Below are positions 1 to 31,180 of a stretch of DNA of 32,004 bases, in pieces (position 1 is the stretch's first letter; each line of letters starts with the position of its first letter). The notes under the pieces were generated by a model that had not been told where the DNA came from, did no database searches, and saw only the letters and a program-made list of their open reading frames with translations. This DNA is from Nitrososphaerales archaeon (GTDB lineage Archaea; Thermoproteota; Nitrososphaeria; Nitrososphaerales; Gagatemarchaeaceae), in contig JACWAI010000037.1 in the NCBI GenBank assembly GCA_014874415.1, positions 1 through 32,004 of the forward strand. Direction: 5' to 3'. The position numbers and the translations under genes were made by a program.

Positions 1-400
1 CGGTCCTGCCCCTGAACTCAAAACCAAGTTCCCTGGACACTTTCTGTATCTGCTTGAAGTATTCGACCGCGTATCTGGCCTCGTGGTTTCTGACGTTGCT
101 CACTGACCCAGGCTTGAAAAGATAGGGAATCTTCGGGACATGGATGGGGTAGTTCTTTGTGAGGCTTGAGAGGAACTCCTGCTGCCTCCTCTCCTTGGTC
201 TCAATGATGGTCCTGGCAATCAGGAGGCGCTTCTCTTGGTCGAGATAAGACTGGTACAGGGCTATCTTCAGCTCGTTTGAAATCGGCTCCTCCGGCAGTA
301 TCTGCGCGAGGATATTTCCCCTCCAGTTGAGGAGTGTCACACTGACCCCGTGCAGGACAAGCCAGTTGATGGCCGCGAGACCGGGGACGAACCATTGTGT
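1..400 (-). pseudogene. cas1: Cas1 fragment (CRISPR integrase), 5'-truncated and cut by window edge
   Basis: The minus strand is open from the in-frame TAG at 401-403 to the window edge, about 133 codons. The translation includes AINWLVLHGVSVTLLNWRG, then a helical stretch with EKRLLIARTIIETKERR, then NHEARYAVEYFKQI, ending FRGRT. These match the end of the Cas1 N-terminal beta domain, the linker, the EA..A..YF region holding the catalytic Glu, and the conserved GR just after it. Cas1 integrates new spacers into CRISPR arrays together with Cas2. About 45-50 N-terminal residues expected in Cas1 are missing: no ATG, GTG or TTG precedes the conserved part in this frame, and a stop lies directly upstream. 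A weak Cas1-like string (RELLMIIRGV) appears in another frame near 440-465, which suggests frameshift decay. A casposon-type Cas1 is an alternative. Family assignment is firm; pseudogene status is inferred. Confidence 0.8.
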
Positions 401-666: not shown

Positions 667-698
667 GAAAAATCAGTTCTATTACTGAGAAATAGAAC
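667..698 (-). terminator. Probable terminator hairpin at the end of the AbiE pair
   Basis: GTTCTATT (676-683) pairs with AATAGAAC (691-698) around a 7 nt loop, giving an 8 bp stem. On the minus strand it is followed by GATTTTTC. The abiEii stop codon lies inside the hairpin. Confidence 0.5.
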
Positions 699-1455
699 GA
701 GCGATTCGCTTAGCAGAAGACGTAGAGACGCCTAGGCTTCCCGCAATACTTTTCCATTCTTCTTCTTTGATCTTCTTCACTGCCTGCTCGAACCTCTTTG
801 AGGCATTCTTGGAGAGAACAGGGAGTTTCGTGCCTGAGTATTGAATAAGCCCGCATAGATCCATCAAATCCTTAGTCTTCTTATCATCTTGTGTCCTATC
901 AGGAAACGATTTCACTTTCATCTCAATCAAGAGGCTTGGTGTCGGCATCATGACCTCAACACCAGCCAACCTTGTCTTGACGTAGTCAGTTCCGGCGAAA
1001 ACCCTAGCCAAGAGTGGTTCCTCCAGCACGTTGAATCCCGCAACCTTGAATCTCCCAAGATCGTTTGTATCCACAAGTACGTCAATGTAGAGGTTGAATG
1101 TGTCGTATTGAGGAAGGCTTCGTTCCTCCTCGGCCGTCAGCTCCCTCTCTTCCCAGAGGTGATATCGCTTGACGAATCTGAACGACTCTGATTCGAATCC
1201 CATTGATTCCATCTGTTTGATTGCTTTCCCAAGCGCCGAAACCTTGAACTGACTTGGATTCCATTTGATGTCTAGGTGGAACCCAAGGTCAATGTCTCTC
1301 GACCCAGGATACTCGCTCCCGGTTACCGCTTTGAATTTCTTGTTAAGAGTGTGGCGGACCGCCCAGCCACCGATCAAGCAATATGGCTGTGTGATGACTT
1401 TCACTATTTGATTCAAATAACGCCTGGAGAATCCAGTTTCCTTATCAGAGTACAA
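682..1455 (-). CDS. AbiEii-like nucleotidyltransferase toxin
   Basis: A 257 aa protein of the AbiEii/DUF1814 nucleotidyltransferase-like family. The nucleotidyltransferase signature is present: GGWAVR at residues 29-34 and SRDIDLGF at 52-59, with D54 and D56 as the likely metal ligands. The family's C-terminal basic/acidic signature follows (KSFPDRTQDDKKTKDLMDL), then an alpha-helical tail. AbiEii proteins are toxins of type IV toxin-antitoxin/abortive infection systems; characterised relatives modify tRNA with nucleotides. The start is TTG, with GGAG about 9 nt upstream inside the end of the preceding gene, and only 5 nt separate the two genes. Base composition is clearly more AT-rich than the host genes to the right, consistent with horizontal acquisition. 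Toxic activity is inferred from the family. Confidence 0.8.
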   Translation of the reverse strand: MYSDKETGFSRRYLNQIVKVITQPYCLIGGWAVRHTLNKKFKAVTGSEYPGSRDIDLGFHLDIKWNPSQFKVSALGKAIKQMESMGFESESFRFVKRYHLWEERELTAEEERSLPQYDTFNLYIDVLVDTNDLGRFKVAGFNVLEEPLLARVFAGTDYVKTRLAGVEVMMPTPSLLIEMKVKSFPDRTQDDKKTKDLMDLCGLIQYSGTKLPVLSKNASKRFEQAVKKIKEEEWKSIAGSLGVSTSSAKRIARSISQ

Positions 1456-1460
1456 TTGGA

Positions 1461-2156
1461 TTAACTCCTCATGCTTGCGATGTGAGTTGAATGGTCTAGA
1501 TGTTGTCTGTTGAGCCTCAATAGTTCGTCAAATTTCTTCATCAACAGTTCGGCAGCTTCAGCGGCGGGACCTACTTCTCTCCGTAGGTCGATTATCAACT
1601 GTGGTATTGATACGAATCGATACCCATCAGCTGTGAACGAGTAATAGAGGACCTGGTCGTCGTACCATCTCAATCTTGTGTTACCTCCGCCGACCAACGC
1701 TCCTTCATTCACCAGGAGTGTATGCCAAGCGTCGAAGTCGCTACCACGAATGTAGAACTCGGTCTTGGTTGGGAAGAGGTATCGGTTGATTTTAGATTCC
1801 GCCACGTATGTCGTTAGGCCGTACTCTAGGCGAGTGTTCTTCAACAGCTTCAGAATCTCTGGGAGCATATAGCTTTGTGATTGGTATTTGATGCGTAAAT
1901 GGCCCCATCTCTCAAAGAGCCCCTTGTAATCGGTAACTTTGGTGCCTTGGACTAGTCGAAGCTTTTCCAGGTAACGAATGATTAGGCTCACGTGGATTTC
2001 TTCTGTTTGGGCGAGTTTTGCCACCCTGTACTGCGTGAGGGGTTTTTCGGTATTGCAGAGTAGAATTCTGTAGACTCTGTCTGTCTTGGTACCTCTGATT
2101 AGTCTGTTCTGATCTTCGGCGAATGTGTGCTTGTTGTTTGTTGTGATTCTCAACAT
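1461..2156 (-). CDS. AbiEi-like antitoxin/transcriptional regulator with N-terminal wHTH
   Basis: A 231 aa protein, first gene of a two-gene operon with the AbiEii-like toxin. Residues ~25-80 form a winged helix-turn-helix (RVYRILLCNTEKPLTQYRVA followed by VSLIIRYLEKLRLV). The C-terminal half contains IPQLIIDLRREVGPAAEAAELL, typical of AbiEi-type antitoxin/regulator proteins, where this domain neutralises the toxin and the HTH represses the operon. Leaderless initiation is likely: the TATA box TATTTATAA (2174-2182, plus-strand reading) is centred about 22 nt before the ATG. Immediately upstream are perfect palindromes that could be its operators. The assignment rests on domain order, position and partner; pairwise similarity to bacterial AbiEi is probably low. 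Confidence 0.7.
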   Translation of the reverse strand: MLRITTNNKHTFAEDQNRLIRGTKTDRVYRILLCNTEKPLTQYRVAKLAQTEEIHVSLIIRYLEKLRLVQGTKVTDYKGLFERWGHLRIKYQSQSYMLPEILKLLKNTRLEYGLTTYVAESKINRYLFPTKTEFYIRGSDFDAWHTLLVNEGALVGGGNTRLRWYDDQVLYYSFTADGYRFVSIPQLIIDLRREVGPAAEAAELLMKKFDELLRLNRQHLDHSTHIASMRS

Positions 2157-24145: not shown

Positions 24146-24351
24146 CTTCTCTCACTCCGGAGACGGCTCTCCGAAGGGCGGAAACCGATTAGCTGGAGGC
24201 CTGCCAATACCTCCCTGAGGGTTTGCGCATCGTCCCTTAAACGTCGCCATGGGGCTCATCGTGCCCCCTCAAGAGGGCGGTCTACCTATCCTGCTCTGTG
24301 GTCAAGGGGACGAGCGAAGTTAAAGGGGCATCCCCATGCCTAGCACTCTCC

Positions 24352-24753
24352 TTGACGAAGAATGACCAGGCGCGTGACATCGTCACGACGATGCTGACTG
24401 TGGGCGGAATAGTCGGGGGTCTCACGGGGAGCATCAGGGCGTCGTCGGCGATACTGGTGACCCTGGTCGTCTTTGTCTTCATATCCATGATATTCTACGC
24501 GGTGCTGACGGTCGAGGAGTTGCAGCCGGGACCGTTGCCGCCCAGCGCCTATGTCCCGTTCACCGCCATCGTCGCTCTTTTTTTCTCGGCCTTGCTGGGC
24601 GAGGTACTCTTTGACATTACGGGCATCGCCTGGCAAGGGTTCCTAATCGTGGGGGTCGGAACGGTGGTGCTGACCTGGGCACTCTTGTTCCAGTATTACT
24701 ACGAGAAGTTCATGCGACGATTCCGAAGGTCTCCCAGGGCACCTATTTCTTGA
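24352..24753 (+). CDS. Four-TM membrane protein of unknown function
   Basis: A 133 aa protein from TTG 24352. A GTTAAAGG box at ~24320 sits ~28 bp upstream, whereas the longer frame from 24298 has no promoter support. N-terminal Lys/Asp-rich helix (TKNDQARDIVTTM), then four TM segments (~12-22, ~28-50, ~70-92, ~98-120), ending in a basic tail (KFMRRFRRSPRAP). No family recognised. Divergent from the DUF47-pit operon. Confidence 0.55.
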   Translation: MTKNDQARDIVTTMLTVGGIVGGLTGSIRASSAILVTLVVFVFISMIFYAVLTVEELQPGPLPPSAYVPFTAIVALFFSALLGEVLFDITGIAWQGFLIVGVGTVVLTWALLFQYYYEKFMRRFRRSPRAPIS

Positions 24754-24875: not shown

Positions 24876-25064
24876 TCAGAACCAGCCTTTCTTGTCCTTG
24901 ATGGCGGCTGTGACCTTCTGAAGCGTCTCAGGAGGGATCGGGTCCAGCCTGTGCGCCTCCTTCGCGTGTTGTGCGATTTTCGGCATCAGCCCCTCCTGGG
25001 TCTTTGCACTTGCTTTGAAGTTGCAATCCAGACCGATGTCCCTGCATGCGAATTCCTTGGTCAT
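24876..25064 (-). CDS. DUF1059-family small protein
   Basis: A 62 aa protein matching the DUF1059 pattern: FACRDIGLDCNFKASAKTQE near the N-terminus (CRDxGxDC) and AQHAKEAHRLDPIPPE in the middle. Members are predicted small metal-binding proteins; biochemical role unknown. A TAAATAAT box lies ~28 bp before the ATG, so the transcript is leaderless. The 122 bp gap to its right-hand convergent neighbour ending at 24753 shows no gene. Confidence 0.85.
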   Translation of the reverse strand: MTKEFACRDIGLDCNFKASAKTQEGLMPKIAQHAKEAHRLDPIPPETLQKVTAAIKDKKGWF

Positions 25065-25223
25065 GATGTTCAGGTGTTACAACAGTAGACGATTATTTAC
25101 GTGTGTGGGAGCCGTGTTCCGAGTCCCGTGATGGGGCTTGTTGCGCCTCCGTCGGGATCAGCCCGTAGAACCTTCGTTCCGAGTTCAAATAGGCAGGCGT
25201 ATCCTGCATGCCAAGGTATCGTA

Positions 25224-26252
25224 GTGGAAGCCGAACGAGAGTTTGTCGACAACATCACGAGATTGGACTGGTCGACGTTCAGCCTTCCCACCGGCATAAG
25301 AGCTGGAGCGTTCGTCGTTCTCCCTTTCCTACTTGAACCCCTGATTGGGTACGTCAGTGCGGCATTCGCAGCTCTCGCAGGGATGTGGCTGACCAACACC
25401 GATGGGCCGAAGTCACGGATTCCCATCTGGGTGCTTCTGGTCGCCTGCTTTACGGAGTCTGCGGCCGTGGGGCTTGGAACGCTCTCTGGTACCACCGGGG
25501 CGATCGCTCCTTTGCTCGTCGGCGTCGGGGTGTTTCTTCCGATGCTGGTCCACGGGAACCCAACCTGGACGAGGGTTGGAACCTTCACGGCAATCACCTT
25601 CGCCGTCGGAGTCGGCCTCCCCGGGGGGTCCGACGCGGCGATGCAAAGGACGCTCTTCTCCCTCCTGGGCACTCTGTTGGTCCTGATGGGAATCGAGATG
25701 CAGCGCCACTTCGGCAATAGGGTTGGGGCAGCTCGCGGCATCGGAGCGCTGCCGGTTCCGGGTGACGCAAGGTTGCACCCTGACGCCCTGCGAAACGCCG
25801 TGACAGTCGGGACCGCCTCTGCGGTGGGGTTCTCCATCGGGATGGCTCTTGGCCTCCCCAGAGACTTCTGGGTAGTCATCACGATAATCCTGACCGTGCA
25901 ACCAAGCTTCAACGCTACGCTCACATTCACTTCGGGCATGCTGCTTGGCACGATCATAGGCGCGATCCTGGGAGCCGCGGTCGTCATAGGAACGAAGGAT
26001 GTGTTCGTTCAGCTGCTCTTCCTTTCGGCGTTCGCGGTCTTGATGTTCGCGACGAGGGGCGTGAACCTAGCCCTGGTGCAGGTATTCCTCGCCCCTTTCA
26101 TAATCGTGCTGTTGTATGTGATCTATCAGGGGCAGGCTAACTTCGCCGAGGCGAGAGTCGAGGACGTGCTGGTTGGAGGCTTGATTTCAATCGTAACAGT
26201 ATCCGTGTTGGGGCTGGACGCGGTCAAGAGGTACTGGAAGAAACCCGCGTGA
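25224..26252 (+). CDS. FUSC/aromatic-acid-exporter-like membrane protein
   Basis: A 342 aa protein from GTG 25224; CAAATAGG ~33 bp upstream supports this start, and the longer frame has no family sequence before it. Two FUSC-like bundles: IRAGAFVVLPFLLEPLIGYV, AALAGMWLTNTDGP; and a second block LRNAVTVGTASAVGFSIGMA, FWVVITIILTVQPSFNATL, GTIIGAILGAAVVIG. The WVxxTxxxVxQP-type motif is diagnostic for the family, which exports aromatic acids in bacteria. There is no HlyD partner here, so substrate and mechanism are uncertain. Confidence 0.8.
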   Translation: MEAEREFVDNITRLDWSTFSLPTGIRAGAFVVLPFLLEPLIGYVSAAFAALAGMWLTNTDGPKSRIPIWVLLVACFTESAAVGLGTLSGTTGAIAPLLVGVGVFLPMLVHGNPTWTRVGTFTAITFAVGVGLPGGSDAAMQRTLFSLLGTLLVLMGIEMQRHFGNRVGAARGIGALPVPGDARLHPDALRNAVTVGTASAVGFSIGMALGLPRDFWVVITIILTVQPSFNATLTFTSGMLLGTIIGAILGAAVVIGTKDVFVQLLFLSAFAVLMFATRGVNLALVQVFLAPFIIVLLYVIYQGQANFAEARVEDVLVGGLISIVTVSVLGLDAVKRYWKKPA

Positions 26253-26262
26253 AACGCCTGTT

Positions 26263-27057
26263 TCAGAGCTTCCGCTTCGGTTCGTAGACGACCAGTTCGT
26301 TCCCTGACCGCTTGAATTTCATCTGCTTTGTAGCTGCAAGCAGGGCAGGCTCGCTGAAGGCGTTCAGAATCTTCCTCTTAGACCTGAGAACTGCAAAGAC
26401 GAGACCTTTGTCTACAAAGACCCGGCCTCGTGAGAAAGGCTTCGCTGGAATAGGGCGATCTACGACGCCGTCCCCTTGCTTGTACGGATTCAGAGTCGTC
26501 CAAATCTCAATAGTATCGAGATTCTCTCCGAGGGCAGGATAGAACGGCCTCCTATCGACCTCCTCCCCTTCGCCATCCCTCGATCGCGTATACAGACAGA
26601 AAGGGTCGGAGAGAACCATCCCGTACGCCCACAGCTGGACGAAATAGGATCCCTTTAGGAAGACCTTGTCGTCTATTATCAGGAAGCGTACCGTGTCGCC
26701 CTGCCAATCCGTGAGCACGGCATCAGGAGTCCCCCTCAGGCCATAGCGGACCGAGCACATCGTCATGGACCAATAGAAGGTATCTTTGTTCCGGATGCGC
26801 TTGATTATAGAATCTGGGTCTGTGTCGACGCTTCTCATACGCTCAAGCGTCTTGTGGTCCTCGGTTCCCCTAAGCATCGCCTCCGTCGGCTCCGTGTTCC
26901 TGTAGATTTCTCTGACGACCAGGTCCCTAAGCTTCTCAGGGTGTCTGCGGTCGTTCTGGGCGAGCGCCGAGCAGCGTATGCACTCTGGCCTCATGACGCA
27001 TGTCAGACAGTTAGACATCGACGGCGGCAGCCTCTTCCTGCTCTGATACATCGGCAC
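26263..27057 (-). CDS. Cas4/RecB-like PD-(D/E)XK nuclease with N-terminal Cys4 cluster
   Basis: A 264 aa protein. The four nuclease motifs are in order: H68 (GTEDHKTLE), D112 in GLRGTPDAVL, the D-x-K triad D129-D130-K131 in FLIIDDKVFLKG, and Q141-x3-Y145 in QLWAYGMVL. This is the RecB/Cas4-type PD-(D/E)XK order, with QxxxY. The N-terminus carries NCLTCVMRPECIRC, i.e. C17-x2-C20-x5-C26-x2-C29, which could hold an Fe-S cluster or zinc. Cas4 instead uses one N-terminal and three C-terminal cysteines, so this is a distinct arrangement. It is the last gene of a three-gene operon, with 3 nt between stop and start. No CRISPR array or other cas gene adjoins it. A DNA-processing or defence role is an inference. 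Confidence 0.7.
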   Translation of the reverse strand: MPMYQSRKRLPPSMSNCLTCVMRPECIRCSALAQNDRRHPEKLRDLVVREIYRNTEPTEAMLRGTEDHKTLERMRSVDTDPDSIIKRIRNKDTFYWSMTMCSVRYGLRGTPDAVLTDWQGDTVRFLIIDDKVFLKGSYFVQLWAYGMVLSDPFCLYTRSRDGEGEEVDRRPFYPALGENLDTIEIWTTLNPYKQGDGVVDRPIPAKPFSRGRVFVDKGLVFAVLRSKRKILNAFSEPALLAATKQMKFKRSGNELVVYEPKRKL

Positions 27058-27060
27058 CAG

Positions 27061-27384
27061 CTATCTCACCTCTATCCTCCCGGGCAGCGCGTTCAGTGGG
27101 TCGGCGTACTTCTCGATGAGCTCATGCATGACCGACTCCCTCTGGAGCGTCTGGATGTACGAGTGGGGCCACTTGTACTCGAAGATTATCAGCCTCCCCC
27201 GACGGTCGAGGGCGAATATGCGGAACGTCAGCACCCACTGGGTCCCCTGGGAGTCGGCCCTCCTGACGTCCATGTCGTAGTGCACCGGAGAGTTGTCGTC
27301 GACCCTGACCCGGAAGTCCGGGTATAGGAGGAAGACCCTGACCACTCTGCTCTGCCGAGGCTGGAGCTCGCTAGCGGTGATCAC
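27061..27384 (-). CDS. Small protein of unknown function in the nuclease operon
   Basis: A 107 aa protein from GTG 27384; a longer frame starts at 27426. Either start overlaps the end of the upstream membrane-protein gene (14 nt for GTG). Mostly beta-strand: SRVVRVFLLYPDFRVRV, HYDMDVRRADSQGTQWVL, TFRIFALDRRGRLIIFEYKW, then a helix (LQRESVMHELIEKYADPL). The EYKWPH segment resembles motif III (ExK) of PD-(D/E)XK folds, so a second, minimal restriction-endonuclease-like domain is possible, but motif II is not clear. The following nuclease gene starts 3 nt after its stop, implying coupled translation and joint function. Confidence 0.55.
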   Translation of the reverse strand: MITASELQPRQSRVVRVFLLYPDFRVRVDDNSPVHYDMDVRRADSQGTQWVLTFRIFALDRRGRLIIFEYKWPHSYIQTLQRESVMHELIEKYADPLNALPGRIEVR

Positions 27385-27970
27385 TTGGCTGACCTCCCAC
27401 GTTCGAGACGGTCGGCTGTACGGCATTCTTTCGGCCCAGGCTCTCTTGGACCCATAGCCCTGCCACGGCGGCTGCGCCGGCGAGGACGATCGATAGGGTC
27501 GGGTCCATCCCGTATGCCGTGAGCACGTCGAAGAGGAGCAACCCTCCCGCGAGCGCCGTGACCAGGCCCAGTATCTTGTTGTAGAGCGCTATCCCCACAA
27601 GGAAAAAGACGAAGCCCGCCGCAAGCGGAATGAGGTCCCCGGTGACGAACTCCTGTGTCAGCACGTAAGCTCCGTACCCGATGACTAGGCCAATCCCTAG
27701 CATCACCAGGACGACACCAAACAGGCCACCCATTACGAAGCCAAGGATGACCCCAAGCAGGACCCCCAAGCTGCCGGAGCCCGCTAGGTACTGGGTCGCG
27801 AGGGAACCGCCGATGCTGGCGCCGACCAGCCCGACCGCGAAGAAGGCGACGACCTTGACGACTGTCCTCCCAGCGAAGATCAGGACAAGCGACACGACGA
27901 GCATGGAGAGCAGCAGGGCCCACGCTGGGACGGCGTTCGCTGCCGGCGCCAACTGGTTTGGTATTGACAA
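27371..27970 (-). CDS. Multi-TM membrane protein, first gene of nuclease operon
   Basis: A 199 aa, glycine-rich, very hydrophobic protein with about six to seven TM segments: LLSMLVVSLVLIFAGRTVV, GVLLGVILGFVMGGLFGVVL, LIPLAAGFVFFLVGIALYNK, SIVLAGAAAVAGLWV. The general layout resembles small-conductance membrane proteins of archaea (TMEM198-like), but no catalytic motif is visible. The start is TTG 27970, with GAGGCG ~10 nt upstream. Its stop overlaps the next gene start by 14 nt. Whether the membrane protein functionally belongs with the nuclease or is only transcriptionally linked is unknown. Confidence 0.65.
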   Translation of the reverse strand: MSIPNQLAPAANAVPAWALLLSMLVVSLVLIFAGRTVVKVVAFFAVGLVGASIGGSLATQYLAGSGSLGVLLGVILGFVMGGLFGVVLVMLGIGLVIGYGAYVLTQEFVTGDLIPLAAGFVFFLVGIALYNKILGLVTALAGGLLLFDVLTAYGMDPTLSIVLAGAAAVAGLWVQESLGRKNAVQPTVSNVGGQPSDHR

Positions 27971-30397: not shown

Positions 30398-31180
30398 TTG
30401 GTCACCGGAGAGCGAATTCAAGGCGATCCGCCACTTCTCGGCAATAAGAAGCTGGCGTCATATTCTACTGGATTGTTCAACGAAGAGGGATACAGCTACT
30501 GCAAAAGGCGTACCGGGCGTCGTGCTGGCGGACCCTCGCGAACGATAGCAATCACGATGTGCGACAAAGATGCACTTGGACCATTGGCAAAGTGGTGGGG
30601 ACTGCAAGTAAGACCTCGAGGAGGTGTGGCGATCACATGTGTAGACGGTCCTGCCTATCGTATTGAAGCATCTGGGTTCAGAGCCGAGTTGATAATTAAT
30701 GAAATGATGAAGTACGGTCTGAGCAAAGCTAAGGTCAGACAGTGGCGCAAGGTTGTTCGCCATTGCCGGAACAAGAAAAGCTCACGACGCAAACATCCTT
30801 CCCATCGTCGAATGCATTGTCTGCGGTTGCCCTTGGAAGGCGGTATTCTTGCCAGGTACTCGACTGGGTTGTTTAATGGTGGAGGCTGTAGCTACGCTTG
30901 GAAATCTGGGAAGTATTGGTATCCAAGGATTCAGGTAGGAATGTGTGATAAGGACGCTCTGGAACCTGTAGGAAAATGGTGGGCTGCACATGTTAGGTCG
31001 AAAGGAGAGAAGGTGAAAGTATGTGTGGGCGGTCCAGCCTACCAAATTGCGCTTTCAGGCGCCAGGACCTTAAGAGTTGTCGACGAGATGATCAAATACG
31101 GATTGAGCGATAGAAAAATCGAGCAGTGGCGCAAAGTATTAAGTCAGTGCGAAAGGCCCAGCCTGATGGTGCCGCGGTAG
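30398..31180 (+). CDS. Tandem LAGLIDADG-like homing-endonuclease-family protein
   Basis: A 260 aa protein, TTG start. Two homologous ~105-residue units: unit 1 from LASYSTGLFNEEGYSY (residues 19-34) and unit 2 from LARYSTGLFNGGGCSY (151-166). Both continue with MCDKDAL, KWW, GPAY, EM(M/I)KYGLS and QWRKV. This is the two-motif LAGLIDADG layout, where each motif contributes one catalytic acidic residue. In unit 1 the last acidic position is Glu (E30); in unit 2 it is Gly (G162), so cleavage of one strand may be lost (nickase or maturase-like or inactive). The stop codon TAG is inside the tRNA gene (31178-31180), and the unit is bounded by copies of the tRNA 5' end. The likely DNA target is the tRNA-Phe gene; this is inferred. 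Confidence 0.72.
   Translation: MVTGERIQGDPPLLGNKKLASYSTGLFNEEGYSYCKRRTGRRAGGPSRTIAITMCDKDALGPLAKWWGLQVRPRGGVAITCVDGPAYRIEASGFRAELIINEMMKYGLSKAKVRQWRKVVRHCRNKKSSRRKHPSHRRMHCLRLPLEGGILARYSTGLFNGGGCSYAWKSGKYWYPRIQVGMCDKDALEPVGKWWAAHVRSKGEKVKVCVGGPAYQIALSGARTLRVVDEMIKYGLSDRKIEQWRKVLSQCERPSLMVPR
31139..31143 (+). promoter_or_regulatory. Box A (TTAAG) of the intact tRNA-Phe, inside the upstream ORF
   Basis: TTAAG begins exactly 32 bp before the tRNA start at 31171, matching the spacing at the upstream copy. It lies in the coding sequence of the LAGLIDADG-like protein, so the element brings its own tRNA promoter. Confidence 0.5.

Follow-up and report, generated by a model that had tools for sequence, protein, structure and literature searches.

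A probable solo, mobile-element-type Cas4/RecB-like nuclease with an N-terminal cysteine triad in Thaumarchaeota

The window analyzed in this work, a stretch of 32,004 nt from the genome of a Nitrososphaerales archaeon (G000), carries on its minus strand a gene for a protein of the Cas4/RecB-like PD-(D/E)XK nuclease family, located downstream of genes for a small protein and a multi-pass membrane protein (TM; Table 1). The explanation that we consider probable is that this protein is a solo, mobile-element-type DNA nuclease standing in an incidental operon. Most likely it would trim DNA ends or single strands at a metal-dependent site composed of H68, D112, D129, and K131. According to this explanation, the nuclease gene would lie downstream of the TM and small-protein genes at one ancestral locus of the genus and would be missing from most members; the TM neighbor may be an ordinary membrane protein, and the small-protein gene would stand in its own right, a homologue of it being located on a mobile-like element.

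Table 1. Coordinates of the features of the locus in the window
Feature	Position	Strand	Description and basis
Cas4/RecB-like PD-(D/E)XK nuclease	26263..27057	-	264 aa, GTG start; alignment of 6, hhalign, AF2, PDB comparison
Small protein	27061..27384	-	107 aa; longer ORF to 27426; alignment of 5
Multi-pass membrane protein (TM)	27371..27970	-	199 aa; membrane nature read from the sequence; homologues in 19/121 relatives
CxxCx5CxxC segment C17-C29, nuclease	26971..27009	-	cysteine survey of 6 members
C101 codon, nuclease	26755..26757	-	conserved in 6/6, immediately before GLRGTPD
Active-site stretch D112 to K131, nuclease	26665..26724	-	alignment and hhalign

The three genes and the conserved residues of their products

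Homologues of the TM, small-protein, and nuclease genes were collinear in two further genomes, G024 (locus L034) and G017 (locus L035), and the three are therefore regarded as genes and not as chance ORFs. For none of the three products did a Pfam or NCBIfam model score above its cut-off. Translation of the small protein probably begins from the GTG at position 27384, since the resulting 14-nt overlap with the TM gene is identical in all three genomes. The alternative is a 121-aa ORF, with which the placement given in an earlier sequence-only reading of this DNA is also compatible. That reading had proposed an operon. The three-gene run is real and retains its order in the two other genomes, but tight coupling is not universal, as the gap between the small-protein and nuclease genes, 3 nt in the window and 1 nt in G017, reaches 223 nt in G024.

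The nuclease alignment comprised six members, namely the close group of G000, G024, and G017 (about 70% identity) and the more divergent G112, G016, and G061 (25–33%). Positions G64, H68, D112, D130, K131, and Q141 were conserved in all six, as was the acidic character of position 129 (D or E), while Y145 was found in three, the others having E, E, and M. Of the Cas4/RecB motifs previously described as complete, H68, D112, D129-x-K131, and Q141 were thus confirmed across the family, and Y145 was not.

The cysteines C17, C20, C26, and C101 were likewise retained in all six members, and C29 only in the three close ones. Spacing of the N-terminal triad was CxxCx5C in four members, CxxCx7C in G061, and CxxCx9C in G016; no cysteine occurred beyond position 158 in any of the six. 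The view that the protein has four N-terminal cysteines, unlike Cas4, must accordingly be adjusted: all four are present and the layout is not that of Cas4, but C29 is confined to half of the members and the fourth invariant cysteine is C101 in the core. From these patterns, the protein is predicted to bind a structural metal (Fe-S or Zn) through C17, C20, C26, and probably C101.

In the AF2 model, built with five sequences, residues 61–210 were mostly modeled at pLDDT 57–92, with a dip to 48 at residues 161–170. The mean pLDDT was 57, and residues 1–57 and 211–264, including three of the cysteines, were unmodeled. With its intact core fold and catalytic residues, the protein belongs to the PD-(D/E)XK superfamily.

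Strong purifying selection on the nuclease was observed in the one pair with unsaturated dS, G024–G017 (dN/dS 0.047); dS was saturated in the other two of the three pairs. The corresponding values were 0.18–0.54 for the small protein and 0.22–0.36 for TM. Identity between G024 and G017 was 82% for the nuclease and 54% for TM, which indicates that these genes evolve at an unequal pace. GC3 of the nuclease gene was the lowest of the seven genes compared in the window (0.694) and the lowest of five in G017 (0.631), and in G024 it was level with that of TM (0.725 and 0.721, respectively).

For the small protein, five sequences were aligned. The ExK-like segment noticed earlier is genuine, the FExK motif (F68-E69-x-K71) being invariant in all five; the invariant positions include D29, H35, D44, R55, E69, K71, E88, and R103. 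The predicted structure contains five strands and one helix (pLDDT 56), with FExK on a predicted strand. With regard to a possible PD-(D/E)XK core, in which a D would precede ExK, every row of the PDB fold comparison stayed below Z 5, and no Foldseek match in BFVD reached E 0.001. The fifth member, on contig C3 of G019, shows 27% identity and has no detectable ATG, GTG, or TTG start. It adjoins a D5/DUF5906 helicase and a ParE-like toxin on what appears to be a mobile-like element; tyrosine-recombinase-like and RHH-like ORFs were also recognized by eye on this contig, with no Pfam match.

Relationship to Cas4 and other PD-(D/E)XK nucleases

The nuclease profile was compared with a reference profile of eight Cas4 proteins from archaeal relatives (eight of nine ORFs). 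With hhalign, residues 54–187 were aligned at E 6.4e-5 and a probability of 64%, and H68, GLRGTPD, DDK, and Q141 of the nuclease were placed on the Cas4 motifs. The best family model was that of Cas4 itself (TIGR00372, NCBIfam; residues 53–151), at 14.1 bits against a cut-off of 65 (E 0.03), and the PADLOC Cas4 model matched the same residues at E 0.008. Pfam gave no match for the window protein, and among the six members only DUF4438 in one of them, at E 0.2.

In the VIA-align comparison of the nuclease model with the PDB, Cas4 ranked on top (7mi5_A; Z 8.6, rmsd 3.7, 134 aligned residues), followed by 7mi4_A (8.0), 8d3l_J (7.9), 9kqh_A, titled DinG (7.8), and 4ic1_G (7.1). Lower rows contained MGME1, AdnAB, EXO5, lambda exonuclease, Dna2, and RecB. 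Foldseek searches of PDB and BFVD with the same model produced no match as good as E 0.001, and the PDB sequence search returned no significant match, only rows at E 0.68 and 1.1. The absence of a family model over its cut-off and of a Foldseek match at that threshold, together with the modest hhalign probability and mean pLDDT, weighs against the preferred explanation.

Cas4 (DUF83, PF01930; TIGR00372) and the window nuclease have in common the RecB-like PD-(D/E)XK core with the Gx3H, GxxD-like, (D/E)xK, and Q motifs. The eight aligned archaeal Cas4 proteins all carry one N-terminal cysteine and a C-terminal CxxCx5C, whereas in the window nuclease the triad is N-terminal, the C-terminal CxxCx5C is absent, and the fourth invariant cysteine lies inside the core. 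The claim of a Cas4/RecB-type nuclease that differs from Cas4 is therefore upheld by the hhalign alignment, the rank of Cas4 in the PDB comparison, and the cysteine layout; the evidence supports a protein of Cas4/RecB type that is not a canonical Cas4.

A PD-(D/E)XK core and four cysteines with a CxxCx5C triad are also characteristic of the ‘iron staple’ nucleases AddB, Dna2/Bad, and EXO5. Their triad is C-terminal and that of the window nuclease N-terminal, and the latter has no helicase domain. It is conceivable, and we propose it tentatively, that the nuclease represents an iron-staple clade of inverted topology, in which the CxxCx5C triad precedes the core and is closed by the core cysteine C101. 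If so, the metal site would lock the N-terminus, and not the C-terminus, onto the nuclease core. For MGME1 (Z 6.5–7.0) and lambda exonuclease (5.3–5.7) the likeness seen in the PDB comparison is at the level of the fold, as it is for RecE and for viral PD-(D/E)XK exonucleases (BFVD rows, none at E 0.001); we know of no cysteine site described for any of these. The term ‘iron staple’ and the Cas4 cysteine layout are taken from PMC4176176, where Pcal_0546 and SSO0001, both Cas4, are presented with one N-terminal cysteine and a C-terminal CxxCx5C.

Cas4 derivatives with rearranged cysteine parts have a precedent in archaeal viruses, TP1/gp7 of TTV1, described in PMC4625639 as a split Cas4-derived nucleocapsid protein. 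As presented in that source, its active-site residues are partly lost and its cysteines are distributed over two genes, whereas the window nuclease has an intact site in one chain. Solo and mobile-element forms of Cas4 are reported for archaea in PMC5704561, and PMC6563490 mentions Cas4 homologues carried by a thaumarchaeal casposon. Judged by these accounts, the nuclease can be assigned to a known kind, its cysteine arrangement being the new element. No report of a PD-(D/E)XK nuclease with an N-terminal cysteine triad was found in the literature searched, and its novelty is regarded as provisional.

Distribution and genomic context

Carriers of the nuclease are soil and groundwater archaea. 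It was detected in 6 of 121 relatives, in 6 of 400 genomes of the order, in 6 of 370 of the class (one judged spurious, and G112 not among the matches), and, among 398 genomes drawn across the phylum, in its own genome only; these samples overlap. The spurious class match, in G744 (E 2.3e-4), was dropped because the ORFs there resemble other proteins by eye. A search of genome contigs with the single protein as query gave no match. Within the genus (G000 plus 30), 4 of 31 genomes carry the nuclease, and it was not found in 27, some of them near-complete.

The small protein was present in 5 of 121 relatives. Its profile search of the order gave matches in 7 of 400 genomes, two of which were weak and not accepted: the match in G040 contains in-frame stops, and that in G090 covers 41 positions at E 0.0014. 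The TM homologues occur mostly without the small protein or the nuclease, the small protein being absent from 15 of the 19 genomes.

All three genes together were found in three of the six nuclease carriers, G000, G024, and G017, which belong to one genus and share one syntenic locus. In G024 the gene order is that of the window (CoaBC, nitrilase-like, TM, small protein, nuclease, PhoU-like, phosphate transporter, RDD, HflX), and relative to it the window has extra ORFs between the nuclease and PhoU-like genes at 24298–24753, 24876–25064, and 25101–26252. In G017 the shared part runs from TM, small protein, and nuclease through HflX, with divergent PhoU and transporter genes. The nuclease gene of G017 is immediately followed by an intein-like ORF (L035:7911-9161, minus strand; PF14890 at E 1.2e-4, below the cut-off).

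The complete genome G005 keeps TM, small protein, RDD, and HflX and lacks the nuclease, and in G010 (locus L051), where CoaBC, nitrilase-like, RDD, and HflX remain, TM is reduced to its last 67 codons. This remnant, at L051:9248-9448 (minus strand) between the nitrilase-like and RDD genes, was noted as a decayed copy of the locus. The trio thus looks like a single ancestral locus on the chromosome, belonging to one thaumarchaeal genus, that has undergone losses. Elsewhere in the window, an ORF at 30398–31180 (plus strand) encodes a protein with two similar halves, each of which matches a separate ORF in G010; no family model exceeded its cut-off.

The divergent nucleases of G112, G061, and G016 have neither the TM nor the small-protein partner. 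That of G112 is surrounded by ABC transporters, a prenyl synthase, and an eIF2B-like gene, and that of G061 by thiolase, PAP2, and ATPase genes; both thus stand amid housekeeping genes with no evident mobile element. The G016 copy is located among predominantly same-strand genes on a 154-kb contig (G016:C2) with a GC content of 0.50–0.53, compared to 0.63 in a 20-kb chromosomal sample.

Of the 73 ORFs of 150 aa or longer in five stretches of this contig (within 16001–115000), 65 lie on one strand, while the remainder of the contig has genes in both orientations (plus strand, 20 of 38). Its genes include topoisomerase IA, RNA ligase, CCA-adding-like, DnaQ-like exonuclease, and AAA genes, and a glmS-like gene was recognized by eye in the first stretch; no terminal overlap was found. 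The contig (L037, L069-L071, L094-L097) was recorded as a candidate large virus-like or plasmid-like element.

Competing explanations and significance

The mobile-element character of the nuclease is suggested by its patchy distribution, the G016 copy on a low-GC contig, and the small-protein homologue beside a D5-type helicase. Against it stand the housekeeping surroundings of two of the three divergent homologues and the lack of nuclease relatives in IMG/VR, phage, and plasmid scans, where a Synechococcus phage S-H9-1 match (E 0.2) was dropped. As these scans used short peptide patterns or limited collections, absence from viruses, phages, and plasmids is weak evidence.

The same surroundings in G112 and G061, the vertical synteny within the genus, and the strong purifying selection in the G024–G017 pair would also suit a DNA-repair exonuclease that these lineages have retained and that has no connection to mobile elements. 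We consider this unlikely, given a nuclease that most genus members, including near-complete genomes, do not show, and a copy on a low-GC element.

Somewhat more doubtful is that the three genes form a single defence or DNA-processing module, with TM as membrane anchor, the small protein as adaptor, and the nuclease as effector. The equal gene order in G000, G024, and G017, the 14-nt overlap in all three, the short gaps in two of them, the patchy presence of the nuclease, and the decayed locus in G010 are in line with such a module. However, all three trios share a syntenic locus within a single genus, and ancestry may account for their linkage; TM and the small protein persist without the nuclease in G005, the nuclease occurs without partners in three genomes, TM mostly lacks the small protein, and PADLOC defence models gave no match for the small or TM protein. 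A conserved three-gene defence module was thus rejected as a general statement, the partners being absent from half of the carriers and the nuclease from a complete genome. The undescribed module suggested by the sequence-only reading was not borne out, and outside the genus the gene neighborhoods show nuclease homologues scattered without conserved partners, the very pattern that it had named as contrary to its proposal.

Cas1 searches bear on a further role. A Cas1 fragment (PF01867, E 8.7e-16), the sole Cas1 match found in G000, lies at window positions 2–376 (minus strand), where it is cut by the contig end about 26 kb from the nuclease; it was correctly stated before that no CRISPR genes adjoin the locus, although this fragment is on the same contig. 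Among the five other nuclease carriers, a Cas1 match was obtained in G016 alone and none in G024, G017, G061, or G112 (67% complete); G005, which is not a nuclease carrier, also gave none. Use of the nuclease as a stand-in Cas4 in CRISPR adaptation or in a casposon, for which the Cas1 fragment in a genome where no PF01930 Cas4 was found could speak, is very improbable in view of the mostly ordinary genes between fragment and nuclease, the scarcity of Cas1 among the other carriers, and the canonical Cas4 that G061 possesses besides the nuclease. Two adjacent ORFs at 682–2156 (minus strand) adjoin the Cas1 fragment and had no Pfam or NCBIfam match; judged by eye, they resemble an AbiEi/AbiEii (nucleotidyltransferase) pair.

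The solo, mobile-element-type nuclease thus remains the explanation that we prefer. The cysteine layout of Cas4 is shared by AddB and Dna2 and is used as a signature. A related nuclease with its triad at the other end of the chain would demonstrate that such a metal site is open to rebuilding, and it would escape current Cas4 models. The finding adds a nuclease that may be linked to mobile elements to what is known of the poorly studied non-model Thaumarchaeota.
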